Below, one piece after another: positions 30,434 to 52,882 of a DNA stretch of 64,000 bases. Made by a program: the position numbers and the translations under genes. The notes under the pieces were generated by a model that searched no databases, was not told where the DNA came from, and saw only the letters and a list, made by a program, of their open reading frames with translations. Each line of letters begins with the position of its first letter. Position 1 is the stretch's first letter. Source of the DNA: Muricea muricata (taxonomy: Eukaryota > Cnidaria > Anthozoa > Malacalcyonacea > Plexauridae); NCBI GenBank assembly GCA_963855995.1, contig OY979729.1:6156115-6220114 (forward strand). The letters are read 5' to 3'.

Positions 30434-30804
30434 TTTACAGTAAACTGAAATAACAAGAATATTGTCAAATAAAATAATAAGAATACTGTCACTACTATAA
30501 TACTGTAATAAGAAAATTGGCAAAATTTAGATATTACAATTATTATCGCCGAATGATGTCATATAAGAAACTCCAATTTTGGTCTGCGAAATGAATACTG
30601 AGAAATAATGCTAGCTAATCGCACCGGAAAGGCCCGGCTTATTCCACGAGCAAGATTGTTAACGCGATTTTTAGTGACTCTTTTATATCTACACTAGTTG
30701 CACTTACAGCCCATAAGCATGCTAAATTCACTGTCAACACATAATTATAACATTTTAACGCGTTTCTAAAAAATAATCTGTGTTGATTTATCATTGTTCT
30801 GCAG

Positions 30805-31177
30805 GTCCATATCCCGAACCTTACTTGTTCATAAGATCTGAGACTGAAATTCTGGCGATTGATTTGTTAACTCTGGATACAACTGTCGTCATCAGTGGAC
30901 TTACAAGTGCCGCGATGGATATTGACACTGTTAAAAAGAAATTATATTTTCGGAAGGGAAACAATATATCCAGAGCAAACTATGATGGCAGCAGCGTTGA
31001 AGTTATCGTACAGAATGTTACACCTTGGAGAGTAAGGGTGGACTGGAAAGGACGTCGCATATTCTGGACAAATTTTAATAATGAAATTTCCATGGCGACT
31101 TTAAATGGGCAGGAAAGAAGAGTGCTTAGAACAACAGAGGATTGGGTTTATGATTTGGCAGTAGACTCGAACGCAGG
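30805..31177 (+). CDS. YWTD (LDL-receptor class B) repeat exon
   Basis: A 373-bp exon with acceptor TTGTTCTGCAG ending at 30804 and donor GTGAGTTTT at 31178; it starts in phase 1 and ends in phase 2. The translation reads PYLFIRSETEILAIDLLT, then DIDTVKKKLYFRKGNNISRA, then VDWKGRRIFWTNFNNEIS and ATLNGQERRVL, ending VYDLAVDSNAG. LYFRKGNN and IFWTNFNN stand at YWTD positions, and the I..A...G......L spacing is that of LDLR class B repeats, which form six-bladed beta-propellers in LDLR/LRP, nidogen and related extracellular proteins. At least the second half of another blade must lie in a later exon; none was found before the transposon nest. The phase fits exon 1 at 22746-23007. Confidence 0.85.
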
Positions 31178-31719
31178 GTGAGTTTTATTGACTTGTAAAG
31201 GTTAAATTTTATCATTTTCTATTTCATTAATGGTAAAATATTCAGTCGCTTGCGTGTAAAAATCTCTCATCGACTTCACTAGGGCGACCAGGTAACACAT
31301 GTCCCACACATACACACACTATGTGACGTAATGCGTATTGTACTATCTACTGAATGATTATGCAGCTCATCGCAGCTCATTGATTCAAACACCACATTCT
31401 GTACGAGCTGAATTAGATAATTAAGTTTTATGCATGTAACGTACGCCCTGAGCGGACCAGAGACATGCGCACCCCTGGCAAAGTTTCACCTGCAGTAAAT
31501 TGAGTCCTGGCAAAGTCTCATGTTCCATCCTGTGGTGGTATAGTGGTTTAGAAGGGTCTGGGAGCGTATGAAATCTGAGGTCACAGCAACGTGAATGCAA
31601 CGTCTAAGTGAATTAGAATTGGCGGGTATTATGCAGCAACATGAATTTACAACTGAACAAGTTCGACAACACTCTATACATTAAAGGGTGTTAGCAATAT
31701 TTTTTTATTATTTATGCCA
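31178..31719. other. Intron start, no gene recognised
   Basis: Begins with donor GTGAGT. No downstream YWTD exon is visible before the transposon nest begins. Confidence 0.5.
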
Positions 31720-31939
31720 AAGAGCAAAGCCTGTGGCAAAGCGAAGTTATTCGCAAAAGTGTACAAAATGTAAATTGCTGATTCAGCAAAAATTGTGACG
31801 TCACTACTTATATTTTATATTTTACACGTTTGGTCACATCACATTATACGAGCTAACTAAACATACAAAAGACATTACGTGATAGGGTTATCCCAACACT
31901 ACAGCTTTTGGCCTATTACTGTGATCCAAAAGAGACATT

Positions 31940-32300
31940 AGGGCCATTTATAAGAGCGAAAATAAGCCGCGGCTAATTTTAGCCCAGGGTTCGGGCCTCG
32001 TCTTAATTTGGCCGCGGCCAATTTTAGGCGGGAAAACCTCGTAAAAACGCTTCGTTCGCGACCAAGGCAAGTCTATTTATACGATGTTTATTAATATCAT
32101 TTATTATTAGTTTAGTTTATTAATATGATGTTCGCGACCAAGGCAAGTCTGTTTATATGATGTGTTGTCCTATTTATACGAGTGTTTTGGGCTATTTTAA
32201 TAAATTTAGTAAAACTGGCGTATAAAAGGCTGTGTTCTCGACTTATTTAAGCCGCGGCCTATTTAAGCCGCGGCTTATTTTCGCTCGTATAAATGGCCCT
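31940..32300. mobile_element. MITE with GC-rich 35-bp TIRs
   Basis: AGGGCCATTTATAAGAGCGA at 31940 and TCGCTCGTATAAATGGCCCT at 32300 are inverted, continuing inward as AAATAAGCCGCGGCT. ATT is found on both sides. Internal duplicates of GCGACCAAGGCAAGTCT are present. It was inserted in element B. Confidence 0.88.
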
Positions 32301-32754
32301 ATTAGTGATTGCAAAGACATGCACGAGACATGTACAAAGTACATACAGGATACATACATGAACGCATACAAAACGATTTAACCCTTTTCCCAAAACCACG
32401 CGAGCGAGCTGAAAAAAATATAATGTTGCAAATGTCATGTTTCTATCACGTGAAATGGCATAAAATAGAAAAGACGAAACCTAGACAGAATATATTAAAA
32501 TATTTTAAAATATGCGAATTGGAATGTTTTGAAAAACAATCAGAAATTACTTATTGGAGAGAAAGCATATACAATGATAGAGAAACACAAAATTCAAAAA
32601 CTTTAAAAAAACCAAGCACAGCTCAGTTATTATTACCTCAAACTCAATGACATTTTGCACACAGATCAGGTCACGCGCACGGTTTTTACAGCGCAGCTGT
32701 ATACTGGAACTGGTTATGATAACACAATATCACAATGTGTCCGCTGTATCTATG

Positions 32755-32956
32755 TGTAACGTACTGAGACACTCTAAATAACACTCTCAACTTTTAACAA
32801 TTTATTCAGTACCATTCATACATGCACAACCCATTCTCTCCGGGTGCACAGTCACTCTCCCTCGATTACATGAAACCCTACTGCTTTAATCTTTAATGTT
32901 AATTATTTACAGTATTCTGTCATAACAGTGTTAAGCAATTACAACATCATGTTACA
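32755..32956 (-). repeat. 3' LTR of the nested Gypsy
   Basis: On the minus strand it runs from TGTAACATGATG to ACGTTACA (TG to CA). Its partner at 47021-47220 is colinear and shares CACCCGGAGAGAATGGG, with a modest number of substitutions plus a small indel, which implies an old insertion. Confidence 0.93.
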
Positions 32957-33039
32957 CTATCCTCAACAATAGCCCCAATGCCCATGCACAAATAACAATA
33001 GTACAAATGTGTCTGCCCGGAAAGCCGTACTTATCAGGC

Positions 33040-33720
33040 GCATGAACATTTTGCCTGAGATTCCTGGGCCTAACCCGTGGGATATGTGGAGCATTGTCGC
33101 AGTGACGTTGAACGTTGTCTGTGGGAATAGTGTAAATCACCTGGTCGCTCCCAAGTTCTAGAGCAGGACAGACAACCTTGCCGTTATCCGCTGGTGCGTA
33201 GCCACGTTTCAACCAATCTTGATGAACCACCGTAATCTTACTTCTACTCGATCTTATTTTGTTGTCGACACCCATCCTCTAAACGATTTCAAATGGCCCA
33301 GTCCACTTGCCCCAATTTCCATCCAGTCCAAAAACTATTTCATAGGGAGATGTTTCCTAGGGATTCTTGGTGACTAGTGTTGTATACGAAAACTACTGCA
33401 TCTATACATAATTCCGATCGTTGCCAACAACTGGAGATCTGAAGCGATTCAAAACTCCATCAACAAGTATTTTTGTGACAGTGGAAGCCTTTTGATTGGG
33501 TGCAGCAAAAGCTTCATGAACACCATTTGGTAGAACTAGGATATACTTGTTACAGCGATTGGCCTCTGGCAAGGGCCCCATGTAATCGATGGCCCAAAAC
33601 CTAAATGGCTCGCTAGCTTGTAAATTTTGTAGCGGCGCTGAGCCATTGTTGATAGCTGGTTCTTTCGACGCATCTGTATGTAGTCGAAATTCTCGACCGA
33701 ATTTGGGATTAATTAAGACC
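33040..33720 (-). pseudogene. Gypsy RNase H end and integrase remnant
   Basis: Minus-strand reading from 33720 down: FGREFRLHTDASKEP (RNase H start), then FWAIDYMGPLPEANRCNKYI (integrase core, first catalytic Asp in AIDYMGP) and ASTVTKILVDGVLNRF. After stops and a gap come VFGLDGNWGKWTGPFEIV and RSSRSKITVVHQDWLKRGY, the C-terminal chromatin/DNA-binding tail of Gypsy integrases. The stretch between RNase H and the core, including the HHCC finger, is deleted, and the DDE second half is missing. Confidence 0.88.
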
Positions 33721-33839
33721 GGTGACTCGTATGGACATGAAAAGCTTTTTCACAGTCTGTGGTCACGTTAAACTGCGTGCAGTTTGTTTTCGTGGTCAGT
33801 TTAGTGAGCGATGCCAAAATAGTTGCATTATTTTTTTAA

Positions 33840-33993
33840 AAAACGGTGGTATAGTTTCCCAACAATCCTAAGAAACTTCGGACTTCTTTTACTGTTTTTG
33901 ACATTCTGTTTTATTGCTTCAACTTTTGTCGCAAGTGGGCTAACTCCATCTTCGAAAATCACATGTCCGAGATAATGAACTTGTTGGGAATAC
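33840..33993 (-). pseudogene. Gypsy RT C-terminal remnant
   Basis: Minus-strand reading QQVHYLGHVIFEDGVSP, then LATKVEAIKQNV with a frame change to KEVRSFLG-like sequence. This is the conserved segment after the RT catalytic site (YLGH..s..GV.pdp.K..ai). The Copia-type LTR at 33994 is inserted immediately upstream. Confidence 0.85.
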
Positions 33994-34390
33994 TGTTAGA
34001 GGCTAAAGTTTGAACCAGTACACTCACAATATAGTTTTATAATTTATTAAAATCACGGTCTAAATCACACTGTACAATCACTCACGATCATTGCACGTTG
34101 ACTCTACTCACTAACCAGATCCAACTGTTTGTCTCTTATCACTTGACTTACTCATTCCCTATGACGCATGCATTGATTTGATTGATTGCATAAATTATCA
34201 TAAATACATTATTACCAACAATTCTCAACACTCTCCCCCTACTCGTTTCTGAAGGAAACGAATATAAAGATCACGCTTCATTTACCTAAATGAATAAGTG
34301 TTACGTAACTGTCCGTAATAAACAAAACACAAAGATGCTATACTTAAGACATATGCTATAGGTAAGACATAGGCAACGACAGATGCTATC
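33994..34390 (-). mobile_element. Copia-type 3' LTR with polypurine tract, inserted in the Gypsy RT
   Basis: On the minus strand the LTR runs from TGTTGAGAATTGTTGG (34230) to CTCTAACA (33994), 237 bp, TG to CA. It is directly preceded by the purine-rich tract GAGTAGGGGGAG (34231-34245), as in the 3' end of a Copia element. About 145 bp of internal sequence follows (to about 34390) before Gypsy RT resumes; the rest of the element is absent. The superfamily call rests on the LTR/PPT style only. Confidence 0.7.
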
Positions 34391-34394
34391 GGTA

Positions 34395-34536
34395 AAGCCA
34401 GCCAACATTAATTTCATGGCTCGTTGGAATGTCGCCGGCGCGGTTGCTAAACCCTTTAAAGGCATACGATTGAATTCCTTCCGAATGCAGTTTTTTCGCG
34501 ATCTTCCGGGTCGACAGAGATATACTATAGACCGAG
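34395..34536 (-). pseudogene. Gypsy RT core fragment
   Basis: Minus-strand reading VDPEDREKTAFG, then MPLKGLATAPATFQRAMKL. It matches the RT palm segment (a.dPedreKTAF....G.yef.rMPFGL.nAPatFQr.M). An in-frame TAG lies just upstream and one frame change separates the two motifs. The YLDD active site that should follow is lost at the Copia insertion. Confidence 0.85.
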
Positions 34537-35058
34537 CTTCGGATTCGAGCTCGGAATCAAGCTCGGAATCGATTCCTTATAAATTTTTATATTTGTTACA
34601 TTTGCTATGCAAATTAGCTTTTCGTTAGTGAAAAATAGAAAATAAAACTAAAGGACTTTAAATTTACCTGAAAAAGATTTGAAAAATCTATACCGTGCTA
34701 TAAGCATAGACATAGATACAGTATTAAAGCATTGTTAAATGAGCGTGAAACTGATTGTCAGACTAAGGTTTTTTGAGGCAAAACATTTCGTAGTTTTCGC
34801 TTATCGTCCAAGATATGGAAACTGGTTCAAATACGGATTTTGACAGGCGGTGTTTGACGGAACCGTTAAGATAATGCCTCGGGCTTTTCGCGGATTTTTA
34901 GGTAGTTTTGGTGACATTCAGGGATTTTTTTAGGCGTACGAGACTTTTTGAGTAGACATACACGGTCTCCGGAGCATTTTTATTTTTTAAGAAAATTGTA
35001 GAAGTAGCAACTCTGATGAAGATTAGTGGCAACACTGATCAAGTTTACAAAGATGCAT

Positions 35059-35119
35059 GTAACGCTGCTGCGAAAATTGTCAATTCGCTGTAACGCTGCT
35101 GCGGAAATTGTCAATTCGC
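35059..35119. repeat. 31-bp tandem duplication
   Basis: GTAACGCTGCTGCG followed by AAATTGTCAATTCGC occurs twice back to back with one substitution. Confidence 0.85.
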
Positions 35120-35504
35120 CAACATTCAACCAGACGTGTGAAGAAATTTGATGTCCGTGCCATGCAAAACGCTTTCGCAAAAATGTTATAATTATAATAT
35201 TAGCGATATGAATAGGCTATGAAAAATCTAAAATGCAAAAATGTACCGGTAACTTGTAAACTGATGTGAAAATTACAACCCTCTTGTCGCTAAGTTTTAT
35301 GTAACAATTTAGCTATGGTTTTGTGGTCAGCTCATATTACGTTTCCTTTTTCTTGCAACATGCGCTCTCGGGATGTCTGTCCTTCTAGTCTAAAAAAGGC
35401 TTTTACAACTTACGAATTAGAAATAGCTTGTTTCTGTTTAAAACATGGATAAACCAATACGACTATATTCTGAGGTTGCTAGTTCGAGCGGGAATGAAAC
35501 AGAT

Positions 35505-36670
35505 ATGGCGATCAATGTCTCCCACGGTAAGCACAAAACTGGCAAAGCATGGCTTGGTTAACTGGCTAAAGGATTACCAGGAAGAAGATGAGCACGTTGC
35601 TCTCACGAAGACTTTATATTTAAGCAAGGTACGCTGACTTGAAGTACTTTTTCGAAAACAGAATGAGGATTAATATATAGTTTTACTACCTAAGTATGTA
35701 GTCATATGCATATAATTGATCTACATGTTTGGATACAACAATATTCTTTATTAATGCATGAATTCACAGTAAATCTAGTATGTTTACTTATCCGCAGCTG
35801 ATTTTTGGTACAACCATTTCCTGACGTTTGAAAATGTGTGTATAACGTATATACCCGATAATGCTATGACGCGTATATAAGTTTATTAAATGCCATGTTA
35901 ATTTCTAAAACTTTCTTTTACTCCCAGTACCATCTTAAAAACTTGAAATTGTGTTCCCACAGTTGAGTTTTATATTTCTTAACTGTCAAATACAATTGTG
36001 GAGTCACATGAAGATTCATTTTCAGCGAAAGAATATTCATATATATTCATAGGCCTTGCCGCCTTGGCTACGCGCTAATGCTTTTTTACACGGCAAAAAC
36101 GAGTCGAGTAATTCGCGTACACACTGTACTGCACGGTTTTTTGTCTTTTTGACTGTCGGATACTGTATTTCGATGCGTTTTTTTCAAATATTCATGTTAT
36201 ACCTAACAACCCAAAATAAGTTATATGGGCGTGAAGCATTAATATAGTCACTTGCATGTTCATGTTTTTTTGCTTGAATAACTGAATAGAAAAAGATTAA
36301 GCAAGAGCTTATTATGCATCACATTGTTTGCAGTGGAAAGTTCAAACAAACTAAAATACGTCAAGTTAATTAAAAAAAGAAATGAAAAACTGCAAAAAAG
36401 TTGTTATACAGTTTTAAAATAACTTTCCAAATAGGGAATAAAAAATTTCGTGTTATATACACTTTAACAAATTTAATTGTAGAATGGTGATGCTCGGTTA
36501 CATTCGGATGTTGTGAGTGGGGGATGATAAGGACCGATCAATGTCTCCTGCCGCGTCTCCTACGGTAAGCCCCATACTGTGGTTTAATATATACTGGCTG
36601 AAGGATTACCGTAGGAAGAAGAGTACGTTGCACTTCAGAAAGCTTTAAGCCAAGGGCAAATAACGTAACT
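35505..36670. repeat. Diverged direct repeat of about 125 bp, two copies 1 kb apart
   Basis: CGATCAATGTCTCC, ACGGTAAGC, TGGCT(A/G)AAGGATTACC, GGAAGAAGA, ACGTTGC and GAA(A/G)(G)CTTTA recur in order at 35509-35636 and 36535-36665. The first copy is open (35428-35637) and reads NWLKDYQEEDEHVALTKTLY. It may be a duplicated exon of the transposon; function unknown. Confidence 0.6.
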
Positions 36671-37608
36671 GACGAACTGATGATCAGAATCAGAAAAACT
36701 TTATTTTGTCAAGTTAGCTCACTCACTGTACAATATACTGTTATCCTTGGGAGTCCTGGGGAGGTGTAAGTTGAAAAATAACCAACAGAGCGATACGAGG
36801 AAACGTTGATATTTTCTTTAAAGGTTGAAGTTATAGGTTTAACAGCTACAGACGATTTGCCAGCGAGGTAATTAGTGCCAAATCTAATACACGGACTTTT
36901 AATTCTAACTCGAAAATTTGGAACAAGTTTAGGTGTGAAGCACAAACAACCGAATAATCAACTCGCTTTATAGTTCATTATTTCAAGAACCTTATTTTAC
37001 GGCAGTGGCTCTTCTGGCAACTAATAGAAAATACCACATAGCCATGGTAATTATTTCAGGAGCCCTTCAGCGTAGGATCTTACTTCTGAAAAAGAATGTT
37101 CATCGGATGATAAGGTACAGCAGATCAGACAATTTATGTTTAGTTGAGTAACTGTGAATTTGTGGCTTGGCTTTCGGTAGTGACAATGTAAAGTCAAATA
37201 TAGTACGTTTTCTGTACAACAGTAAAGTACTTCAGAGTTGGACTTCGAAATGCAACACAATCAAGTGACATCTCGTCTGCAGTGCCGTAAAAGCTTCAAA
37301 GTTTTCTCAACGAAAAGCAATTTAAGAAAACACCAGAGATCAATACGTTGTGATAAGAAGAAGAGGTATGCAATGAAGCTTGCAATTTCAAGCGACTTTA
37401 TATATATATCCAAGTATTGTAGCAATATTTCATTAAATCTCTTCAATCATACACCGGAAATCAAATGAAGTTATAATCAAACAGGAAGACAAAAAAGTGA
37501 ATTTGGACTTTCGGTTATGATACTACGATTTACGGTCAAAAAATGAATTTTTTAAATATTTTATAATATAGTTTTTCTGTATATGTATGCATTGACCATG
37601 TTATTTAG

Positions 37609-38557
37609 AAATCAACGGAGGCTCATGCCATCACTATGGAGTGGGTGTAAAGTCCAAAAACGAGATAGCCTTCCACATAACATTGATGGAAATTGTGTGT
37701 TCGAGTTGCCATACGACAAAGATAAACGTATGGGGAGTTGTTCAGATGGAAGACCGTGGTAGCAGTGGTGTACGTCCAAGAGACAGGGCTTTCAGGGAAT
37801 TAGAAGAGTAGCATCTTGTGGCGGTACTTACGTGTGCAAAAATACGCGTTGTCCCTACCTTCACTCATGTGGCAAAGAGAACAAGGTGGCAGAGAACGAG
37901 GTAGTGTGCTCGTGTTGTGGGTACGAAGCTCAAGGAATATCATGCGAGGCAAGGAAAATCTGGGAATTCGAACATGACAAAGTAATCGTACTTCATTACG
38001 GGGAGCATAAGTGTAGCGTAAAGGAGCAAAGTCCTGACATTTGGGAGGCGGCTACAACGTTTTTCCGTAAAAATACTTCGGCAAAACCATCCCAGTTTCC
38101 TTATCAACATTTGCGAGGAATGCTGAGGGAAGGAAAGACCGTGGAGGGTGTTCGAAAAAGATTCAAAGTATTAAACAAACGGTCGTCGAACAGGAGAACC
38201 CTGTGGGACACTCTTTTGAAGCTTTAGCGGCAATAAAAGAGTCCACATGCAGATGTCAAAGATAAGTACCTCTTGTGAAGTGTTAGGGACTGTCGTGTTA
38301 ACGACATTACTGCTATGTGTTGAAGTAACAAGAAACGACTAGAGATTGCAAGCCAGATGCAACGAAATGCAAGCACACATCCTCTAGCAACTGAGTTCTG
38401 TTTCGTAGATGCAGAACATGACAAAGTGAAAGGCTTGAAAACGAACAACTTGTCGGTTCAGCACCCACTATTGAAGGAAATTGTAACAATCGCAAGCATG
38501 GATTGCCTCACAGAGTCCACTGAGACACTCTGCGAGTTTTGGCAGCAATTAAACGCA
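37609..38557 (+). pseudogene. MULE-like transposase exon: FLYWCH-like finger and first catalytic Asp
   Basis: Acceptor TTATTTAG ending at 37608; donor GTAAGTATGT at 38558; phase 2 in, phase 0 out. The frame stays in register for 316 codons although it holds TAG (37760), TAG (38225) and several stops between 38240 and 38330, so it is a decayed single exon and not several. SKRQGFQGIRRVASCGGTYV followed by paired cysteines is the recognisable finger; VQHPLLKEIVTIASM and ETLCEFWQQLN follow the Asp. Confidence 0.65.
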
Positions 38558-40231
38558 GTAAGTATGTCTTTTGTTCGATGAAAACTACAGAGCTGTACAA
38601 TCATAAATCAAAACAGAACCAACGTACGGCTAGCTTATACACTTATACGAGAGGGTGTTGTACGTCTGAGTACAGACTTTAGTTTATGAAGTCGATTGGT
38701 TTTCAAGAATGCTTTAAATTAAATCGTGTGTCTAGTATAAAAAAGCACTTTAATTATCATTTAGGTTTACTTTTCTTTAGGTGGTAAGATAACACGTTAT
38801 CTTCCCTTACATGGTAAGGAATGGCACCTCCGTCTGTATGTTGAAATTCTACTTTTCATTATAGGCGCTTGCAGATTATACTGGTGAGGCAAATTATATA
38901 TTTGACCCTGAATGCATTGTTACGGATGAGCATAGAGGCAATGGGGAAAGTATAAGGCGAGTGTGAAAGGAAGGGATGGTGGAACGCACACAGTCGTGTG
39001 AGATGCATTTCTACGACTGCGCCCACAGGGTAGCGAAAGCAGCATGGAGTTCTCAATCCAGAAAGAAGTTCATTACCATGATCGACGGTATTTATACGGC
39101 CAAAACTCCTGGATGCTATGAGCAAAGCGCCGTGCCCAGTTCGAATGGGCTGCAAATAAACCCAAGAGAGCCCATGTAAGAACATGATTTAGTAACTTCT
39201 GGCATGTTAGCAAGGGCTTGTGGGAAAGTTTCTAACATCCCATTTTTGCAAATAGCTTCTTTTCACCGGGATAAGTCGATATTGTTTGTTCTAAATGGTA
39301 TGCATTTTTTGTTACAGGTTTCAAATACAAACATGGCGGAGGTTGGTCATTCCAGGAATGCGACAAGAGGGGCCAAGAATGACACTCTAGCTCGAGTGGC
39401 TGCAGACCATGTTGTTGAAAGTGCTATCCTTCAAGCAAAAGTACAAAAGCTGATTTAGATAATGTACGTGTCGTATACAACTGGCTTTCAGGCGTTTGCA
39501 ATATTGTGCAGGCGGGTATAGGCGTAAAATGTCAATTTTCGATTTAAAAAATGCGAAGAGTTTTTGGCACTCATTATTCTATACTTCAGAAATTTTAGAT
39601 AAAACTTTTATTTTCATCTATGCGGCAAATTTTTCGTGATACCATGAATAAATAATGAATAAAAGATTAATAGCACTAAAAGAACAAAGTTACCGACATT
39701 GGTGATGATGTCAAAAGCACAGCTTATTTTCTTGCATTTTTTGAATTTTTTGTCACAATCAGTATTAGCAGTATTAAAACAACCCAAAGTATATTAAAAA
39801 ACGTTTATTGCTTTCAAAGCAAAGTTTTTAAGGTAATGCTGCAAGTCTTTATTTCAAATTATGTGTACTAATCAAGCGGACCTTCATCGTCAAAAAAACT
39901 AGTAGAATTTTTGGTGCGTTTTTCAAGTGATGTTTGATAGATTTCAGTTAAGCTAAGAATAATATTTATAGACAATGCATCGTTAAGTTGCACAGTAGTA
40001 TTTTAAAGTTTATTACACAATGTACGCACGTTTGAGGGATTTTGTGGAGTTGTAAATGTGACATGCAATTAGGTCTTAACACTAATATCCTATACAAAAA
40101 TCAACGCCTAAAAGTTTAGCTTAAAGAGTGTGTAAATGATTCAGTATCGTTATTTTAAATTGTTTAGCTTCCTTAACGGAACATACCAAGGTGGGCGGTG
40201 CCCATAACGAAAGAAAAAGGATCAGCTGTCT

Positions 40232-40807
40232 TTGCGACGAAAACTCGATAGAGCTACGCAGTTTGCAAACGATGACTTCAGAAATGGCTCCATTGACGCC
40301 AGCCAGTACGAAGCTAGTCCGCCTATGCATGAACGTTCGAGTCATAAGGCCAGAAATGAAGATATTTGCAGCTCATCGGCAGAAGATGAAACGCCAGTTC
40401 AGCACAAAAACGCAAAGAAAGCTCATCGTGAAAGACGTACGAGAAGTAAAAAATTTGAGGAGTCTTTAGAGATGGCCAAACGAGCCAAAATTGCACTTAT
40501 TGCAACTCATGACATGAGTGCAACAAACACAATTTTCAAGCTCAACCATGGCGGGAAAACGCGTCTCACGGAAATATCAGAGACGGTCTCGTGTAACTGT
40601 TCTTTTGCTAGAGGCAGTGATCTTAACCTACATGTTTTATTGGTACTGATGAATGTGCTTCAAGTTAATAAACACGATAAAATGCTTCATCAGAAGGCAC
40701 ATTCTGCAGAGAATGTTTTAAAACTGTTTTCCAATTGTCAGCCAAGCACCGTCGCCAGACTAGCTAGTACCGTCTCATCCAATATACGTCACATCCATCA
40801 CTGTTAG
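40232..40807 (+). pseudogene. MULE-like transposase last exon: basic linker and SWIM-like motif
   Basis: An open frame of 191 codons with a basic stretch (KKAHRERRTRSKKFEESL) and then SCNCSFARGSDLNLHVLLVL, continuing NVLQVNKHDKMLHQKA. It resembles SWIM domains (CxCxnCxH) that follow the catalytic core in MULE transposases. A frame change near 40200 separates it from the preceding GGAHNERKR, and a stop at 40805 separates it from the 40834-41265 tail. Confidence 0.6.
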
Positions 40808-41593
40808 GCCAAACGCAGACAGGATCAGCTGACGTGTCTACTGCTAGTGCTACAAGAACTGCACTACGTCCGCCAGGTCCAACACAGACAGGATCGTCTG
40901 GTGTGTCTGCTGCAACAGGGACTACACCCCTTCATCGACCAGCCATAAGCGTGCCTTATCCAACACCAAAAGTTGGCCAGTACGTACTAACATCGTCGCA
41001 GTACTGCCACCCAAACGTGGAGAAGTGCTTTGGCTTCCAAGGTCAGTTAAGATGTCGAAATGGAACCCCCTCCCCCCCGGAAGATCTGGTTGTCATTAGC
41101 ATGATGCCACGCCAATATATCGTGGCAGGTACAACCAGACTGAAAATGAGCAATGCATATTTTCATGCAAATGAAGGATGCATCAAGTGCAGGTTACCCA
41201 ATTTTCCCCACACTCTTGTTGATATCCAGCTAGGACTTCCCCCATTAATTAAGCCATGCAGATAAAACATTCCTCCTTGGCAACTTAAATTTCCCCATCT
41301 AAGTATGAGTGACGGGACGAGCATAATGACTTACAGATTTTTTTGTATGCACATTAACAATGGGAATCACTACTCCCATATATTTATATATAATTTAAAT
41401 TTATATTCAATAGGCATTTCGACCAATCACGTCGTTGCTTTCTCCCACGTGCATATGCTTTTATACCCAATAAATTGGCAACATTCTAAAAGCCCGGGGA
41501 GGGATTTGATATCGGCTTCAGGGAAATATGGGGTATAATAGAAGAACAAAGCAATGCAAATGAACATGAATTATTATATAACGACACATGAAC

Positions 41594-41648
41594 ATTATAT
41601 AATGACACATGTGCATTATACTGTATAATGCACATGTGTCATTATATA
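41594..41648. repeat. Near-perfect 27-bp-arm palindrome
   Basis: TTATATAATGACACATGTGC and its exact reverse complement meet at TATACTGTATA. A partial extra copy (TATATAACGACACATGAACA) precedes it at 41575. Confidence 0.9.
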
Positions 41649-41771
41649 AAATTTTTCATCTTATTTCTTTATGAGTACATGTACAAACATAAACCCAAAC
41701 TAAAACACACAACGATATGACTTTTAATTCAACACTTCCCAACAACATACTATTTTAGACAAACGTAGAAA

Positions 41772-43256
41772 CTATTTAGAAAAATTGAAGGTACAGTTAT
41801 TGAATACAGATCCCGACATAAAAACATTTGTAACACCACTATCACTACCATCAGGCTTCGACGAAATCATACTACGCATTAAGTCAGCAGTTTCTTCAAA
41901 TTCAATCAATTCAAGATCTTTGAGAATGTCTGACGAACTTTCTTGTACTGACTCGCTTAAACTTGGTTTATTTACAAAGGTTCCTTCACTTTTGCCGATA
42001 TCAATACTTGCACCACTGTAATCTGGAGGGGCGAGTGTATTACGGACATTCATTTGTTGTGCCAAACTTGACTTCTCATAGCTAAACAAGGCGTTAGAAC
42101 GATGGCCTGTCCCATCTCGAATCAATTTCTCGTCAACTTTACTTTGAAAAAGTCTGGTCGCGCACGCGACTCTCAAACTGTGCGATTTTTGCGTTCCAGC
42201 CCCGCTTCGACACATAGTTCTGGCAAAACTTTGTTTAATGTATTAATGCCAACAGGCATTCGACAAAATTCTATTCTGTGCTGTTCAAATTCGGCTTAAA
42301 ATAAAATGCCTCCACTTTGCACGCGATCTCTTGGATTTTTGACATATAAATGGCGTAGCATTTAATAATACATCGGTTGTGACCGAAATCTTTTCCTGCG
42401 CAGCAAACGTGTTTAACAACCCTTGGTTTATACTTTAAGTCTTTTAACCCGCCGTGGACGTTTTCGATACACTTTCATCGTAACTTCAAGGTAACGGATT
42501 CTGAATCTATGCTGAAATTCGAGTATCTTAGGTTCCAATGTTCTGTAGAACGTAATCCGAACAATTTACCGTTATAAAAATAAATAGTACTAAACAACGA
42601 CTTAGCTGAATTGCACCCAAGGATTCCCTTTTCCCACAAGAGAGCCTCATCTTCTTCAGATACTGGGTCTCGTTCCCTCATTTTATATTTTATAGCCACG
42701 CCATCTGATGTTGCCTTCCGCATCTCTGCCTCCAAAGCCCGCCTTAGTAAGTTTAATCTTGAAAAACAAACTATCATTAGCAACTGAAATAGATTCAGCA
42801 ACATATTTTGAATTGTTTTGAATTCAAGAATTACTCAGTACATCATATCGCTCAAGACTAACCTTGGCTCGTCGCGATTCAGCAGTCGAATAATGCTACC
42901 ATTTTCCGCTAAATGTCGTTGAAGACCAGAAGCAATCATATACAAACTTCTGCTGGGTTATCTTTCCCCATTTTCCTTCACAATTTCTTCAAAAAATTTT
43001 GTTAGCCAAAAATTTAAGCTCTCCACACTCATATCGACGATACTTGTCTCCAGAGTCTGAATTTTATGCAAATCAACTGGAAAAGAACACTGCTCTGCAC
43101 AAGGATTTTTGTTTTCTCGCTCACTTTGCCATTGGGAAAAGACTTTATATGCCCACTTTGTTGCACTTCGTGTTGATTTTGGAATACATTCATCCAAAAT
43201 CTCTTTTTCTTCCTCTTCTGACCTGGGAGGTCGATAACGGCGCTTTGGTGGCATAG
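41772..43256 (-). pseudogene. Crypton-type tyrosine recombinase pseudogene, two exons
   Basis: Exon 1 (43254-42863, minus) reads MPPKRRYRPPRSEEEEKEIL, then IPKSTRSATKWAYKVFSQW and SLYMIASGLQRHLAENG (core-binding domain), and ends at donor GTTAGT in phase 2. Exon 2 begins at 42757 after TTTTTCAAG and reads ALEAEMRKATSDGVAIKYKM, then LLWEKGILG and NGKLFGLRSTEHW, HGGLKDLKYKPRVVKH, and finally KSHSLRVACATRLF and DGTGHRSNALFSYEK. The R of HSLR, the GHRS box and the Tyr of SYEK are the tyrosine-recombinase catalytic positions seen in Cryptons and in Crypton-derived host proteins of the ZMYM/QRICH1 type. Stops at 42958-42960 and 42475-42477 and frame shifts near 42200-42260 inactivate it. The catalytic C-terminus itself is intact. 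An acidic tail of about 90 residues follows. Confidence 0.82.
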
Positions 43257-43546
43257 TGTTACTGATAAAATTCGTCCTTGTTCATATGGCTGGGTTCCGA
43301 TAGCATTTCACGAGCAAAGAATAAATGAAGTTGATATAGTAATCAGTTGAAGACGTGTCTCTGATTTAGTCCAAGTTAACAATGAGTTATTGTCGTAACT
43401 GTGCTTCAGGCAGCGTTTTACCATATACGAAACACTGCATGCGTAAAAGCTATTCATTCTTTGAAATCAATAGAATATTATTTTGGCTGATTTGAATTTG
43501 AAAGGGTGCCAATAACTGAACAGGTCTACTCTTTTTGTCACACCTT

Positions 43547-43793
43547 CAGGGACCGCGGAGCGGGGTGGCTGGCTGGGCTAAAGCCCCACCAATAATTTTT
43601 GTTCAATACATATGTTTGCATCAAAAATATAAGAATCGAGGCAAAAACTACATGCCACTTCATGATGATTGTTGAAATTAGAAGTGTTTCCAGGCATCTC
43701 AGGGCTCTTGGTTTCAAAAGTTTCCCCTCTAGATATCTCGCACCTTCGGTGCCCGATTAGCCCCACCAATAAAAAACCGCTCCGCGGTCCCTG
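43547..43793. mobile_element. MITE with perfect 17-bp TIRs and ACCTT target duplication
   Basis: CAGGGACCGCGGAGCGG at 43547 and CCGCTCCGCGGTCCCTG ending at 43793 are exact inverses. ACCTT flanks both sides (43542-43546; 43794-43798). The subterminal GCCCCACCAATAA occurs at both ends in the same strand sense (43583, 43760), so the inner structure is direct and not inverted. Confidence 0.9.
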
Positions 43794-43837
43794 ACCTTTA
43801 TGTTAGAACAATTTACTGATTACTCTCATGTCGGTCT

Positions 43838-43919
43838 CACTCGTAGGTCGTGTTTTATGTGATATAAAACACTCGACTGCGTCTCGCGTTTTATATCACA
43901 TAAAACACTCCTACTCGTG
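43838..43919. repeat. Hairpin, about 35-bp arms
   Basis: TGTTTTATGTGATATAAAAC and GTTTTATATCACATAAAACA are inverse, extending outward through CACTCGTAGG/CCTACTCGTG. Confidence 0.85.
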
Positions 43920-44140
43920 TTTTAAATATTACATATTTATTCGGCATGCTAATTCACAGTTATTACATTAGATTTTGATTATCATTATTATTAGTAGTAG
44001 CATTATTAGAGTATCATATTTCTATTATAAATGCGTCATAACTAATAATTTTAAAGTCTTTCATAATGTCATTCCTTTATCTTCTCGAATCCGAGCTCGA
44101 ATCTGAACCTACGGTAATCCCTACAGAGACCTTTTGCGGA

Positions 44141-44560
44141 CTAAGACTGTGGCCTGGTACTACGACGAATGATACCTTTATCTAACATGTCGTCAATCTG
44201 CTTTTTAGATTCATAGCGGAAAGCATGTGGCATTCGCCTGGCACGCTGCCTATTCGGCGGGTATATATAAATTTTATGATGTGCAATACGCGTTTGGCCA
44301 ATGGTGTCGCTAAATAGTTCTTCAAATTCGCCCAATACTCGCTTTACTTGTTGTTTTTCGGAATTTCTTAGACTAGCATCTAAACGAGAATCGACATTCT
44401 CCTCGCGATCTTTTGTTTTCACGGCATTACAATTAAATGGTTACTTATTGTTAGCGATTGCTTCCTGCTTAGACTCAATCAGAGGACGAAATTCCGCCAA
44501 TTTGCAACCCTTTAGTTACGAGAGCCACCCAGTATTTTAATATACTATTCTTTTGTATTT
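44141..44560 (-). pseudogene. Gypsy protease-RT junction and RT fingers
   Basis: Minus-strand reading DASLRNSEKQQVKRVLGEF, then EELFSDTIGQTRIAHHKI, then PNRQRARRMPHAFRYESKKQ and IDDMLDKGIIRRSTRPQS. This is the standard opening of Ty3/Gypsy RT (linker, H.I......p.r...R..p, then qi..ml..GiI.pS.sp). After a frame change it runs to DYRRF at about 44101, where the 9.6 kb insert begins. Confidence 0.9.
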
Positions 44561-44636
44561 TATTGCAACCCTTTAGCAACTCAATTTCATTCGCTGTATT
44601 ATAGGCTATTCAGACTGGTACCGTTTTAGGCATACT

Positions 44637-45970
44637 GCGAAACCCGGACTGGACTCAGACCTGTTTAAAACCCGGACTCGAGAAATAACCGGACTCGACA
44701 CTCGGCCTGAAAAAAGCTGGACTTGTTTTCACAAAACCCGGACTCGATTAATAAAATTGAATTCAAAACTGGAACCATTAAAGACAAGTTGCGCGTAAAT
44801 CTGTAATATACTATTTATTTAATCTCTGCATGAATTGGCCTAAAAATTTATAGGACCGGGTTTACGCCAACCTTTACACAACAAGTTAAAGCATTATAGT
44901 TAAACGCTGGCGTTCACCTCGAACTAACGTTAACTTGCCACTCATCTACCGGCATTACATTCAAAAATGCACAAAAACATTGGATTGTTTCACTATCTTA
45001 AACAAAATTCGACGTTTCGAGCGAAAATCCTTCGTCGGGAAGTTGCAATTATGATTTTGATGCAAGCTTCACCAGTTTTAAACGTTGTGCGGCTGCCGCA
45101 TAAAATGTGTAGCCATCGCCTATCTTCTGATGTATTGTTAAAAACAATTCCCAAACGATTTCCGTTATGAGTATGTCAATGATATTCATCCAACCAATCA
45201 CAAAATAATGTAATGTGTCGCAGCTTTTTCGAACAGGCACTTAGTGGCATACTCGGCGAAATACATATTGGCCGGAGAACGTAAATCACACCTGGGTTTC
45301 TGTTTGTTATCAAGGCAACTGCATAGCATCTCTGCTTTAATCATACTATGACAAGCAGATAAAACCCCCATGCAAATGGACTACTGATTCCAAGGATTGG
45401 CATCTTGTGAACACAATTTTGCAAAGGGAATGTGGTCCGGTGCACTCGTTTGGTTGCTCTTTGTCTTTTCAATACCTGTATTGTCAACTGAGTTAAGTAT
45501 TGAAAACATTAACCTACGGACAGTCCTATTGAAAACACAGGCATTAGCGCTAACTTCATGACGAAGGGCCTTCGCTAGAAACGTCAAATTCTGTTTATAT
45601 CGTTTAAGATAGTGAAAAATCCTTTGCTTTTTTGTGCTTTTGAATGCACTTTCGGTAGACTGAGTGGCAAGTCAGTTCGTGGTAACCGCCAGCGTTTATA
45701 ATGCTTCAACTTGTTGAGTAAAGGTCGGAGTGAACCCACTCATAAATTTTTAGGTCAATTCAGGAATTAATAAATATTATATTACAGATTATTACTCGCA
45801 AAGCTTTTAAACCTCGTTTTTAATGAGTCCAGTTTTGAATTCAGTTTCTTTATGAATCGAGTCCGGGTATTGCGAGGACAAGTCCGGCTTTTTTTAAAGG
45901 TAAGTGCGACTATCGAGTCCGGGTTTTATACAGGTCCGAGTCCTGATCCGAGTCCGAGTCCGGGTTTCGC
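44637..45970. mobile_element. Foldback element with about 430-bp inverted arms
   Basis: The left arm starts GCGAAACCCGGACT at 44637 and the right arm ends AGTCCGGGTTTCGC at 45970. Pairing can be followed through AAAACCCGGACTCGA, GAATTCAAAACTGGA, CCTAAAAATTTAT, AAGTTAAAGCATTATA/AAGTTGAAGCATTATA, TTTCACTATCTTAAAC and AGCGAA..CCTTCGTC to about 45060 on the left and 45540 on the right. The outer 150 bp is made of repeated ACCCGGACTCG motifs. The loop of about 480 bp has no coding match. It is inserted in the Gypsy between gag and RT. Confidence 0.92.
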
Positions 45971-46199
45971 ATTTTAGCGACAGGGGTTACAACCAAATGG
46001 ACCACGCGTAGTCCTTATATCTGCACGACCAGCGGATATCATACCAACCTGCGAAATATCTTTCGCCTGTATCTTACCTTGGATTAGTATTTCCAATCGC
46101 GCCGGAATTGCCACTACTTTAGATACGGTTATTTTGTACACCTTTCAACATATAGATTGCACAAGTACTGCATTGGTTTCACCACCGGTCTAGAACGCT

Positions 46200-47010
46200 C
46201 TGCCTGGCGGTGAGTTAGCCGCTGTCATCACAACTCCGTTCGACAACGACGATCTTAGCGTCTGCCTGAATTGCAACAATGTGGCCTGGTTTTCCGCAAC
46301 GAAAAAACGTAACTTTTGATCGTGGACGTTCTTGTTGCTTGATTGCTGCGGCATTTAACTGCTGCGAAATGCTTACTTGCTTTCGGGCGTTTTCTGTCGA
46401 GTTGCTAGCTCGGTAATTAGACCCACGAGTTGGTCGACATCCGCTGTCGGTTTTTGTGTCCCTGTGCTTGGGCTCGTATTTGCACAATGTGGGGCAGGTG
46501 CGTCGTGATCTGCGATTGCTCAAACGTTGGACCAAGGTTAGCATCTCGCTTAAGTTTGGTGTAGAATTGTGAGCCAAAAGTTTTCCTCGTACTAAACTCA
46601 GCAGACTGCGCATGATTTGACAAGTGAAAACAGCAGATTTGACGTCTCCAGCGAGTTTGGGGTCGACTGGTTGGGATGTATCTCATTTTCAAACCGTCAG
46701 GTCTTCATCAGTACGAAGCATTCGGGTTTCAAATTTTGCATAGTAATTACCCCTCTCAACTGTTGGACACAGAGCTTACTTTAGTTTTTTTGCTGCGGTG
46801 GTCTAGGTAGCTCTTTCTTCGGCAGGAGTGGCGTAGAAATGCGTAGCTGCTTGTCCCTGTAGGAACGCAGGCAATTTCTTAATCTTATCGTCGTCTTTCC
46901 GACCACATGCGTAAAGCGTGTGTAAAACTCTTTCAGTCATTCAACAAAATCGTCTTCGTCGAACTTTGATGGAAGAATGCTCGTATAGCTTCTTTGGTCC
47001 AGTTTTACCG
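46200..47010 (-). pseudogene. Gypsy gag remnant with zinc knuckle
   Basis: Just inside the 5' LTR the minus strand reads LPSKFDEDDFVEWLKEFY-like sequence with stops (near 46935-46990), then KKLPAFLQGQAATHFYATPA in pieces, and further on the region FFRCGKPGHIVAI (46280-46310). The last is a CCHC nucleocapsid knuckle whose first Cys is lost (C to F) and whose final Cys is replaced. The first TGG of CTGGTGACAGCGG at the LTR edge (47009-47020) is a plausible tRNA primer-binding site. Confidence 0.78.
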
Positions 47011-47020
47011 CTGTCACCAG

Positions 47021-47220
47021 TGGTAACGTATCGAGACACTAAAAACACTCTCAACGTTTAACAATCTATTCAGTATCGTTCTTACATGCACAGCCCATTC
47101 TCTCCGGGTGCACAGTCACTCTCCCTGGATTACGTGAAACCCTACTTCTTAAATCCTTAATGCTAATTTTTTACAATATTCTGTCATAACAATGTCAAGC
47201 AATTACAATATCATGTTACA
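47021..47220 (-). repeat. 5' LTR of the nested Gypsy
   Basis: Minus-strand TGTAACATGATATTG to ACGTTACCA. It differs from the 3' LTR at a noticeable fraction of sites and by a small indel (ATTTAGAGT against TTTTAGT), so the insertion is not recent. Confidence 0.93.
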
Positions 47221-47976
47221 TATGTATGAATAACGTTTAATGGAAAGGTGATTGCTCCAAAATAATGCCTACATGGATAAATACTAGGGTACCTGCGAGG
47301 TAGGGAATGCTGCGGAGGTTTTAAAGGCTAAAAGTGGTTGGAAATTTTTGTTTACATTTTGCTCGATCTTTCTCCAGCTCGGGGCAACCTTGCTTCCAGA
47401 GATGTTAACTGTGGGTACGAAATTTATTCAATAATATCAATGTGTGTACTACGACTTTGGGTCTGATCAAAATAGAGATTAATGAGAATAAGTTATTAGA
47501 AAAAAGAACTCACACATATTTAGTTTAAATAACAATGCATAGTTTAGTTTTGCGGTATAATTATTGCGTAGACATGCGTGTCTATGCTAAGCAATATCCA
47601 GCCATTTATTTATATTCCATTCTTTACTTGGACAACATTGGTCGAGTCTTCCATTTCAAAATTATATCGGTGAAGTTTTGAAGCTATTTCAAAATGTGGA
47701 AAGACCCTCCAATACAAACAGTGCCATCAAAATAATTAGTATACATTGACAAAATTATAGTTTCACCCTCACTTGCAGTAGTTGTAACTTTTACTAACCA
47801 ACAAGATTGCTATGATATGAATCTCTCAATCTAATAAATATTTTGGGGTTTTCTATTATTTTGGCGGTCCTTCTCAGGGGCCAAATTTGGGGGAAGGGAT
47901 ATTGCATGAAAGTCGGTCCTCAAATAATTGTGCAATTACAATTAAATTAAAACGATTAAATTGTCATCAATCGCAA

Positions 47977-48319
47977 TGGACCATTCCCCAATTAGACAAA
48001 CTTTTAAATTTGAAAACAATTTTAGCACAGTTGGAAAGAGCTTCCTAAATTTAGTGAAATTGTGAGATTTGGTTCTAAAATATTGTAAAATGTCGAAAAT
48101 ATAGTAATGTAAAGTTTGCGAATTTTGTATACTTTTATATTACGCGGGAAAAAGTGTTACCAAATGTTACCAGATTTCCACATAGAGGTAACGTTTTTCC
48201 CTGCGTAATACAAAAGTATACAAAATTCGCAAACTTTACAGGGCAATTTAGGATGCTCATTCCAGCTGTGCTAATTGATTTTCCGAATTCAAAAGTTTGT
48301 CTAATAGGGGAATGGTCCA
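47977..48319. mobile_element. Palindromic MITE, family P, copy 1
   Basis: TGGACCATTCCCCAATTAGA at 47977 mirrors TCTAATAGGGGAATGGTCCA ending at 48319. The inner arms GTAAAGTTTGCGAATTTTGT and ACAAAATTCGCAAACTTTAC are exact, leading to GGGAAAAAGTGTTACC/GGTAACGTTTTTCCC around a loop of about 30 bp. The left arm has an extra 60 bp. It lies in element B. Confidence 0.88.
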
Positions 48320-48870
48320 TTTTCTTCTAAAATATTATAAATTTGCAAAGATTGTGGCAGAAGATCAATGCTCGAACCACGGGAAATGGCCTTTTCCAGC
48401 TCAAGATTTTAAAATGTTCCAGGGTCCATTCCCCGGACCCCCTATAAAGCACGATTATGTATTACGAACGTCCCCACCATCACAAGTATGTACATAATTA
48501 AGAAGTCGGTCCCAGAATCGAGTACCTTCTTCAATTTTTTTGAATTTGCGCCTCTGATCCATCTAGATATCCCTCTAATGTCTTTCTTCAGTATGAATAG
48601 TTTACTGCATATATAATCGCACAATCAAGATAACTCTAGGAAACAAAAACAACTGACCAACTCTTTATTGAGCAATAATTTCCCAAATTGGCAATATATG
48701 GTGACGAGTGACCAATAGGCTAATAGAGTACATTCGCTGAGAACGACAGAAACTTCACCCAGAAACTGCAAAGTTTCTTTTAACGAGCCATTATGGCCAT
48801 AAAATATCAACATTTCCACAACATTAGCAAAGTAAAGTCTCAGAGCATGACGGTTTTATGCACACAACAA

Positions 48871-49094
48871 GGCCATTTACACGAGAAACAAAAATTCGTG
48901 ACTTATATAAGACGCGTTTTATTTGGGTCGCGAGCCGACTAGCGTAAGAACATGGGTTACTACTGTTCCAAAATAAGTCGCAACTTAACAGAACGTAACA
49001 GAAACTGACTTAGTAGACATGCATAGCTAAATAAGACGCAACTTAATTAAGACGCGACTTATAAATTCTTGTTTAAACTCGGTATAAATTGCCC
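48871..49094. mobile_element. MITE related to the one at 31940-32300
   Basis: GGCCATTTACACGAGAAACA at 48871 is inverted against TCGGTATAAATTGCCC at 49094. The inner arms (GACTTATATAAGACGCG; GACGCGACTTATAAATT) also pair. The GGCCATTTATACGAG terminus is shared with 31940-32300. Both sit in element B. Confidence 0.8.
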
Positions 49095-49920
49095 TAACGC
49101 ATGGTTCTTAAGTACACGGCTTTAAAAGATGTTGGTATTGAAATTTAGAATTAAATTTAAAAGTGTAACTATTTTAAAACTAATAGTGGAGAACTTTAAT
49201 GTTAAATCTACAGCTGAAATATGTTATTACAATAAACAGGAAACAGTCTGGTCAGTATACTCAGGTCGCGTGGAATGTAAATGCAGTATATGCGCAAAAC
49301 ATGATGATTCAATAAAGTAGATATGCTACATAATATACGTCTTTATACGATAACATGATGTAAGGTATGCATGTGTAGTCAAAATGTTTTCTCAGAACAC
49401 GGGCAAGTTGTAGTTTCATACTGTCTACAGACGTCCGTACACTATGATCAGCCACTATTTCTTTGCGAGTTAAAAGGTTGAGATAAAGCGGCAAAACGTA
49501 CAATGGTAAAACCACGAGTATTACTGACCACGAAACTGCAGTTTTATGGTTTCACCGCATGCAATATAACTGACAATTCTCGCTGAAGCCCCCTTTGAAA
49601 CTTTACACACTGGGGAGCTTGACACTCGTTTGCTTAATTAACGCTCGGTCGCTCCACAGCAATAACAAGTTATAGAAATTCCGTATCCGGGGACTGGAAA
49701 CGACAGTGACCTTGGCAGCAAAATTGCTTTTCAATACGTCTTGTCGTGTACTATGCAAAATTTAACGAGTTTGAAATAAGAATAACTTAGCTATGCTCGC
49801 AGTTTTATATTCATTAAACATACTTGTCCAACTAGCGACGTCACAACTTTCATTGCTGAATCAGCAATTTATATTTTGTACTTTTTTGCGAATAACTTCG
49901 CAAATGGAAGCAATAGTCTA

Positions 49921-51020
49921 CTATAGTTAACGGCCAGTTAGCTTTTTTATGCTCTTTTACATGAAACAATAGAACATATTGCCAGCATTCTATAATCAAA
50001 ACATGTTCTTTTACGTGCTCGAAATTGCATAAATTGGGCACGGAATTGTACGAATTATAAATTTATAATAAAATTTTGCTATCGATATTGTTCGCCACAT
50101 TTCATAGAACTTCGCGCCATCTAGCGGGAATTTGAAATTTTGACGTTTAAAATCAGATTGGGAACAGAAAATTTAGAACATGTACCCATAGATTAAAAAA
50201 TAGAAGGCAGATTTGGAGAGCACTTGCAACAGACACTAGATGGGGTGGGGGTGCTTTAAATCTGAAAAAGCTACACGAACTGCTGTTTTTAATAGCTTAA
50301 AGTCGAATTCACTTTCTTTCTGCGCAACTGGTTACGAACATTGATTGCATAGGCTTGTTTGTTTGTATACCGTATTTTACTCTTAATGCATACCAGTTTT
50401 TATTCCGTTTAATCCCTGAAATTTAACCGCTTTGTTCGTAACGAGGTAATTTCTGAAATATCCTATCGAAATTTAGAGCTAAATAATCTAATTATAGGGG
50501 CTATTTTTCAGTTCCTTTTTTATGTATGATGCATGACATAATAACATTAAATTCCAACGCAGGACTTTACAGCAGGAATTCAAATTTAATTATCAATTGT
50601 TTAAAACGACATATGTAAACAAAAACACCAAGCAACTTTTACGCCCACAAAGTGTACACTGAGCGGATTTGACTTCTAGTTTAGAAAACAAGTTATCTAA
50701 TCAGTTAATTAATTCACGAAGTTATTTTGAAAACCTCCACTACGTCGTGATTTTTTTTTCTCTTTTCTCATGAATTATTAATGAGTTTTTTCAGAAAAAA
50801 CGGTCAACTGACCCATCTCTACCACTGTGCATAATCTATTCTACTGTACACTATATTAATTGCTTCTTTTTTACGTAAATGCTACAAAGCGAGAAAATTT
50901 GTAAGTCTATAATGACACAGACTATTTGCAATTTGCATTAGAGACTAAAGGTCGAACTGAGCAGGAAGAACAAAACATTTTACAACAGTTAGAAAGAACA
51001 TTTTCAAGTACAGTTGTAAA
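49921..51020. other. No gene recognised
   Basis: AT-rich sequence with no supported feature. Confidence 0.45.
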
Positions 51021-52751: not shown

Positions 52752-52882
52752 GAGGCCGGTTGTACTTTTTAATCACTGTTTTGTAGTTAAATAATGATTA
52801 AGCACAAAATACGTGGTTCTGATTGGTTGATGTTTCAAGTAGTGACAGTTAACTTTATTCACTGTTTTATACAACCGGCCCC
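52752..52882. mobile_element. 131-bp MITE inside the Gypsy RNase H
   Basis: GAGGCCGGTTGTA at 52752 and TACAACCGGCCCC ending at 52882 are inverted. The inner arms AATCACTGTTTTGTA/TTCACTGTTTTATAC are partly direct. It separates RNase H remnants on either side of the insertion. Confidence 0.85.

Follow-up and report, generated by a model that had tools for sequence, protein, structure and literature searches.

Nested transposons are ordinary, and the ordering of their insertions by interruption is already established. Two element types have been described that bear on the case reported here. CryptonA elements carry a DUF3504/tyrosine recombinase, lack terminal inverted repeats (TIRs) and are outnumbered by their internally deleted derivatives, as set out in the part of PMC3212892 drawn on here. 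Proto-Helentrons have a 5' TT and a 3' CTAG and insert between A and T with no target duplication, according to the cited passages of PMC4067079. Relatives of both were identified in a 64,000-nucleotide stretch of Muricea muricata DNA (contig OY979729.1 of assembly GCA_963855995.1, here C14, 6156115-6220114). This whole stretch is called the window, and positions given without a contig are window positions. It holds a transposon nest at 31681-49995, and an LRP-like gene has an exon about 0.5 kb upstream of this nest. The unusual feature is that the nest stands in ninefold replicate beside this variable gene.

A sequence-only reading of the window had proposed a four-level nest with a directly readable insertion order. 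The nest junctions were tested against other copies in the window's own genome assembly (453 Mb, 74 contigs); genome-wide copy counts come from the best-scored matches and are lower bounds. The nest is real and the proposed order stands, with corrections, while the reading as a whole was partly confirmed. There are five levels, since a block taken as one element is two: a miniature inverted-repeat transposable element (MITE) lies in a Crypton, the Crypton in a Mutator-like element (MULE-like element), this in a Gypsy and the Gypsy in element B. The claim that relative ages are fixed by the sequence itself stood for nested pairs but not for the Gypsy and a helitron-like element, which are unordered siblings in B. 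The helitron-like element, a second MITE (31942-32300), a small insert near 44517-44562 and the array of units described below had been missed. Coordinates are collected in Table 1.

A nine-unit tandem array

The nest belongs to a nine-unit tandem array on C14 of at least 2.14 Mb (outermost matches 5.85-7.99 Mb), about one sixth of the contig. Four probes lie in the same order across the nine units: the nest, the exon (30777-31178), a probe 106 kb upstream of the nest, and a probe 58 kb downstream of the first unit's nest. Each of the last two probes is fragmentary in a single unit, the upstream one in u4 and the downstream one after u2. The exon spacing between units is 208-297 kb with a mean of 242 kb. 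The eight units other than the window's (u1 and u3 to u9) were compared over 21-35 kb around the nest. Overall divergence between units was 1.6-4.9%.

The distribution of the insertions among the units was observed directly. The Gypsy right long terminal repeat (LTR) and the MULE-like element are present in all nine units, the latter with unit-specific deletions. The Crypton is present in seven and missing from u5 and u7. Four of the seven Crypton-bearing units carry the MITE at 43546-43789 (the window, u1, u3 and u6; absent from u4, u8 and u9). A 986-bp relative of the helitron-like element lies in the foldback element of four of the nine units (u3, u4, u5 and u7; truncated in u4), the window not among them. 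The PIF-like MITE in B was found in one of six readable units, namely the window, and was absent from u1, u3, u5, u7 and u8; its site has a larger change in u4 and is not covered in u6 and u9. Deeper elements have fewer carriers, in agreement with the nesting order. This evidence lies beyond the data of the sequence-only reading, and the insertion order is therefore independently supported.

Probable exchange between units

With 2.2 kb between them, the MITE and the 986-bp insert show every one of the four possible combinations (a four-gamete conflict): both in u3, the MITE only in the window, u1 and u6, the insert only in u4, and neither in u8 and u9. Divergence from the window was also mosaic. 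In u4, 162 of 2690 sites differ left of 39290 compared with 44 of 4200 to the right through the Crypton (p = 9e-32). In u1, u3, u6, u8 and u9 divergence falls from 2.9-3.7% to 0.8-1.5% at about 38.1 kb. No divergence step was found against the window in u5 and u7, which have no Crypton (p = 0.20 and 0.73). All 36 unit pairs rejected uniform divergence across regions (p ≤ 2.5e-3), and the nearest-neighbour units change from region to region along the sequence. The four-gamete conflict together with the abrupt steps points to exchange between units, and because of this exchange a single unit does not have a single history.

The Crypton-bearing tract probably spread among units by conversion or unequal exchange, and we infer that its absence from u5 and u7 is the original state. 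More tentatively, and at somewhat less than even odds, the insertions may multiply without transposing, copied between units by conversion or unequal exchange with several kb around them, and the receptor exon, at a distance of about 7 kb, would keep its diversity. If true, concerted evolution would be spreading insertions in this array next to a gene whose variability is maintained, a process caught in action.

Loss in place of spread would put the Crypton and the MITE in the ancestral unit, with later excision or deletion from some units and no exchange between them. Tyrosine-recombinase elements can in principle excise cleanly, and u4 has clear later deletions around 43.8-45.8 kb. However, the MULE-like sequence next to the site (39.3-41.4 kb) is most diverged from the window in u5 and u7 (3.7-6.4%, compared with 0-2.7% in the Crypton-bearing units), and the abrupt step in u4 would be left unaccounted for. 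Loss was considered unlikely. Stepwise duplication, with insertions inherited along one tree of units and no exchange, would suit the several insertions common to all units. It conflicts with the four combinations of two insertions so close together, unless one was lost or recurred, and with nearest neighbours that vary by region, and was judged very improbable. Equally little weight was given to an assembly artefact, in which the nine units would be haplotypes or mis-joined repeats. The array is known here from assembly sequence alone, but nine collinear units at the divergence given above, with unit-specific insertions and nine different open exons, are unlike two haplotypes. Spread of the tract by exchange remains the preferred reading over these three.

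The MULE-like element and the Crypton

The sequence-only reading had described one 9.6-kb block with MULE-like and Crypton-like genes. It proved to be two elements, with a distinct Crypton (about 41374-43923) inserted in a MULE-like element. Both genes do lie between one inverted-repeat pair, but a single composite element in a four-level nest is the least credible of the alternatives, because none of the 25 copies outside C14 that cover the 41595 palindrome begins left of 41380, MULE-like relatives end at 41367 (C1:23.9) and 41269 (C15), and u5 and u7 carry MULE-like sequence on either side of the site with the Crypton absent between. These units are empty sites observed directly.

The Crypton identity rests on a DUF3504 match above the cut-off (PF12012, E = 4.2e-11) and a Phage_integrase match below it (PF00589, E = 1.4e-4). 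No repeat pair joined the Crypton ends among the 22 inverted repeats of at least 25 bp in the window. A genome query with 40600-43540 gave a near-full-length copy on C1 (query 800-2941, 96%). It also gave at least 20 short copies in which 41399-42060 is fused to 43278-43540, the structure of non-autonomous derivatives. The hairpin at 41594 had been listed as lying inside the block. It belongs to the Crypton family, since the palindrome was scored in 23 of the 25 dispersed copies (one partly).

In the MULE part, Pfam searches of single frames gave nothing useful, and three frame pieces joined by X matched a Mutator transposase below the cut-off (PF00872, E = 0.023). Matching 9-mers were not seen by eye beside 34535 and 44110, where part of the adjoining Gypsy sequence is gone. 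At C2:36.66 (L050), 34477 is followed by 44127 with 66 bp between, and nothing of the block was seen. This locus was rejected as a clean empty site and serves only partly, as it has lost Gypsy sequence and has another insert nearby. At C2:24.89, 25.58 and 26.28, 2.9-7.3 kb separate the block flanks, known from positions only.

The Gypsy and its inserts

The LTR pair assigned to the Gypsy, with the target site duplication (TSD) TATG, proved to be of one family. The two LTRs differ at 20 of 199 aligned sites (Kimura two-parameter distance 10.9%). Their divergence was 9.0-12.9% in the eight units with both LTRs readable (170 sites only in u3). Mean divergence between units was 2.6% for right LTRs and 5.8% for left LTRs, which is below the LTR-LTR divergence, so the Gypsy is older than the array. 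Its protein matches were below the Pfam cut-offs (RVT_1 E = 0.063, RNase H E = 0.019, zf-CCHC E = 0.13). Gypsy-related copies occur genome-wide.

Splitting of the Gypsy by a Copia-type remnant, the block and a foldback element was borne out, as the pieces flanking each lie close together in dispersed Gypsy copies. Flank distances were corrected for missing bases where a match began or ended inside a piece. In all 13 copies that retain both foldback flanks (44512 and 45972), these are separated by 50-64 bp, and none of the 13 has the foldback. The block flanks (34477 and 44128) are 211-227 bp apart in 14 of 15 copies and about 70 bp apart in C1:2.33. The Copia flanks (33980 and 34373) are 131-134 bp apart in 11 of 13, with a shorter distance in C9 and 2.8 kb in C1:90.5. 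The window Gypsy retains 74 of about 211 bp at the block site (about 137 bp gone) and 39 of 132 bp at the Copia site (93 bp gone). Between 33651 and 33666 it has 14 bp, compared with 716-839 bp in 9/9 copies (0.7-0.8 kb gone). Because of these losses the Gypsy halves match but do not rejoin cleanly. The statement that the halves of the Gypsy and of B rejoin is thus right as to which pieces belong together, while for the Gypsy the three deletions leave the rejoining only approximate.

In dispersed Copia-type copies one end corresponds to 33982-34334 and the other to 33982-34231, with an overall length of 5.4-5.9 kb (four matched pairs). "Copia" is the earlier label, and the LTR family is known here from nucleotide copies alone. 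Gypsy-Copia junctions also occur near exon paralogues at C2:24.89, 26.28 and 36.66. C2:25.58 and 26.28 have an excess of about 1.07 kb over an unbroken Gypsy at the foldback position, and this excess was taken as the foldback. The Copia and foldback insertions probably precede the C2/C14 split. Unit u4 was rejected as an empty site for the foldback, since it has instead a later deletion extending into the 986-bp insert. The nest's left part (Gypsy, Copia and block start) has another copy at C1:2265530-2270490 with 90-95% identity.

Table 1. Features of the nest and its surroundings, in window positions
Feature	Position	Strand	Basis
Element A, other copy of B's family	29179-30445	+	Copy used for comparison in the sequence-only reading
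Host exon, LRP-type YWTD (LDL-receptor class B) repeats	30804-31177	+	Open in 9/9 array units
Element B, left part up to Gypsy target site	31681-32754	+	Collinear with dispersed L045/L046; element A alignment
PIF/Harbinger-like MITE in B (359 bp)	31942-32300		TIR GGGCCATTTATA and TSD TTA, by eye
Gypsy LTR retrotransposon remnant in B	32755-47220	-	LTRs 32755-32956 and 47021-47220; TSD TATG 32751-32754 and 47221-47224
Copia-type remnant in Gypsy	33982-34334		LTR 33982-34231 and about 104 bp of internal sequence
MULE-like element, left part	34535-41373	+	TIR 34535-34561; present in 9/9 units
Crypton in MULE-like element	41374-43923	-	Left end uncertain by about 25 bp; DUF3504, dispersed copies, empty sites u5/u7
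27-bp perfect palindrome, intrinsic to Crypton family	41595-41649		Scored in dispersed copies
MITE in Crypton (244 bp)	43546-43789		TIR by eye: CAGGGACCGCGGAGCGG
MULE-like element, right part	43924-44110	+	Inverted repeat 44084-44110
Small insert (about 50 bp) in Gypsy beside repeated TGCAACCCTTTAG	44517-44562		Missing at C2:25.58 and C2:26.28
Foldback element in Gypsy	44633-45971		Inverted repeats; imperfect 9-bp TSD TTTTAGGCA / TTTTAGCGA (7/9, by eye)
Element B, piece between Gypsy and helitron-like element	47221-47284	+	L046 1433-1500
Helitron/helentron-like element in B	47285-49663	-	3' end like that of 986-bp relative; B family copies continuous across site
Foldback inside helitron-like element	47975-48321		Own foldback of that element
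Element B, right part with right TIR	49664-49995	+	Family-copy comparison

Element B

Element B had been taken to end at its TIRs at 31741 and 49906. These positions lie inside long TIRs and were rejected as ends, since family copies extend past both; the true ends are at about 31681 and 49995, 60-90 bp further out. That B is one element split by the Gypsy was upheld by two dispersed copies, L046 and, in the opposite orientation, L045, which are uninterrupted across the site. In L046 (C9), 1138-1205, 1236-1287 and 1380-1440 correspond to 31742-31809, 32615-32666 and 32695-32754, and 1433-1500 and 1501-1822 correspond to 47217-47284 and 49664-49971. The correspondence of L045 to B is the same. 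The Gypsy therefore splits B precisely at the Gypsy TSD, and B is broken again 64 bp past the Gypsy by a second insertion (47285-49663). These nested junctions were observed directly. L045 and L046 are about 0.83 kb each, inverted-repeat across their whole length, with TTAA at both ends. B itself has TTAA, the piggyBac-type target duplication, on the left only, and no empty site was seen for it. Copies of the A/B family are too short for autonomy.

BLAST alignment of element A to B, proposed earlier as a check, placed A 29250-29313, 29337-29372 and 29445-29526 on B left and 29588-29683 and 30303-30412 on B right, in order. This result is weak alone because the family is near-palindromic and A also aligns to B inverted. 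That the halves of B belong together is settled by L045 and L046.

About 440 bp of the left part of B (31811-31941 and 32301-32607) are absent from the family copies, which is unexplained. Most other units have a further 110-190 bp or more at 32607. At 49470-49474, u9 (C14, about 7.928-7.931 Mb) carries a 2.76-kb insert that has inverted ends and TTAA on either side; the window is without it.

The helitron-like element and its 986-bp relative

The 986-bp insert lies at 45781-45784 and is 99.4-99.6% alike in u3, u5 and u7. On the minus strand it starts TTGCTGCGGAGC and ends in a predicted short hairpin and CTAG. It sits between A and T without target duplication compared with the empty site. 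Helitron/helentron ends (3' CTAG with hairpin, A|T target and no TSD) were thus found for the 986-bp copy through its empty site. The window copy has only the CTAG end and the resemblance, and its last bases do not fold the same hairpin. The 3' end of the insert is 91% identical to 47284-47317 over 34 bp in the u3 and u5 copies and 85% in the u7 copy; by BLAST the two elements share only this 34-bp end. The other end of the window copy resembles the insert's 5' end by eye, and the paralogue at C2:34.22, in the same place in B, is 76% identical to that 5' end over 83 columns. The window element is read as a putative older relative of the 986-bp copy. C2:34.22 (L047) was rejected as a Gypsy empty site: B and the helitron-like end are present there too, but about 2.3 kb of different sequence stands in place of the Gypsy-target stretch.

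The LRP-like exon

The exon beside the nest is LRP4/LRP2/LRP6-like with splice-like ends. At least 29 copies at 77% or higher protein identity were found: 11 on C14 (nine in the array and two further divergent copies), 17 on C2 (one with a stop) and one on C1. Differences among the nine units cluster at recurring positions between conserved strands. Clustering was significant for nonsynonymous changes (p = 0.0004) and not for synonymous changes (p = 0.54), with 73 and 33 extra states in 124 codons, in an analysis in which the nine array copies were complete and two of four C2 exons (25.57 and 26.28) were left out. Positive selection was not shown: among the 15 pairs of six units, the ratio of nonsynonymous to synonymous rates (dN/dS) stayed under 1 in 14 (0.37-0.89) and was 1.46 in the other. 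The exon copies are possibly a diversified receptor family.

Proposed history

The favoured explanation is a decayed five-deep nest beside the LRP-like exon, amplified as an array, with later inserts and spread of the Crypton tract. Element B, TTAA-flanked and non-autonomous, would have been the first insertion. The Gypsy would have entered B, as would the helitron-like element in a separate event. The Gypsy would then have received the Copia element, the foldback and the MULE-like element. Gene and nest would next have been amplified into the nine units of 242 kb mean period. The Crypton would have entered the MULE-like element of one unit, its tract spreading to seven of nine by gene conversion or unequal exchange. 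The MITE would have entered the Crypton, the 986-bp helitron relative the foldback of some units and the PIF-like MITE B in the window's unit. The probability of this explanation as a whole was put at about 0.77.

Several points weigh against it. The step p-values, including that for u4, are optimistic because the cut points were chosen after seeing the binned table. The uniformity test on the 36 pairs takes all regions to have the same rate, with the variable exon stretch among them. The MULE identity is one sub-threshold match, and the element is called MULE-like only. Neither the block nor the Crypton showed a clean target duplication. The LTR divergence of 10% is slightly below the 11-12% between C14 and C2 gag-region copies that share the insertion, so clock and sharing agree only within error. 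In the C2:34.22 paralogue (L047, 4321-4608) identity to the C14 units is 87-91% in the helitron-like part and 81-82% in the flanking B, a contrast that is unexplained.

Ages read from nesting are usually unreplicated. Here nine paralogous units supply natural filled and empty sites, and most steps of the order are testable. The mosaic of the units shows how far the nest of one unit can be read as a single history. In these data transposition can be told apart from copying by exchange, a distinction relevant to estimates of insertion age and copy number in repeated regions.

Other features of the window

A long higher-order tandem repeat with sub-repeats of about 50 bp lies at 8880-18988. Part of a second Gypsy-like element lies at 51700-54600 on the plus strand, with an integrase core match just below the cut-off (rve, E = 1.6e-7) and reverse-transcriptase-like frames seen by eye. 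A 731-codon open frame at 61722-63917 on the minus strand has a weak DUF4218 match below the cut-off (E = 1.3e-4).

Comparison with known systems

The Crypton resembles CryptonA, in the cited part of PMC3212892, in its DUF3504/tyrosine recombinase, its lack of TIRs and its more numerous deleted derivatives. It differs in lying inside a MULE-like element and in having ends that are not base-exact. MarCry, from the same part of that paper, is a true composite, whereas the MULE-like and Crypton parts of the window are separable. The helitron-like elements, most fully the 986-bp copy, share with the Proto-Helentron, Helentron and HINE elements in the cited passages of PMC4067079 the 5' TT, the 3' CTAG, A/T insertion without TSD and an inverted repeat of the 5' end near the 3' end. 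A point of difference is the 3' hairpin, which the 986-bp relative has and which the window copy does not form in the same way. As in the nested elements of PMC2517846 and PMC5657132, as far as the cited sections go, inner elements are younger than outer ones and the order comes from interruptions; here the order was also tested by presence and absence in nine paralogous units. Gene conversion is discussed for tandem gene arrays in the cited portions of PMC7475035 and PMC12400953. In contrast to those arrays, the units here are very long (242 kb on average) and carry a nest whose insertions mark the tracts.

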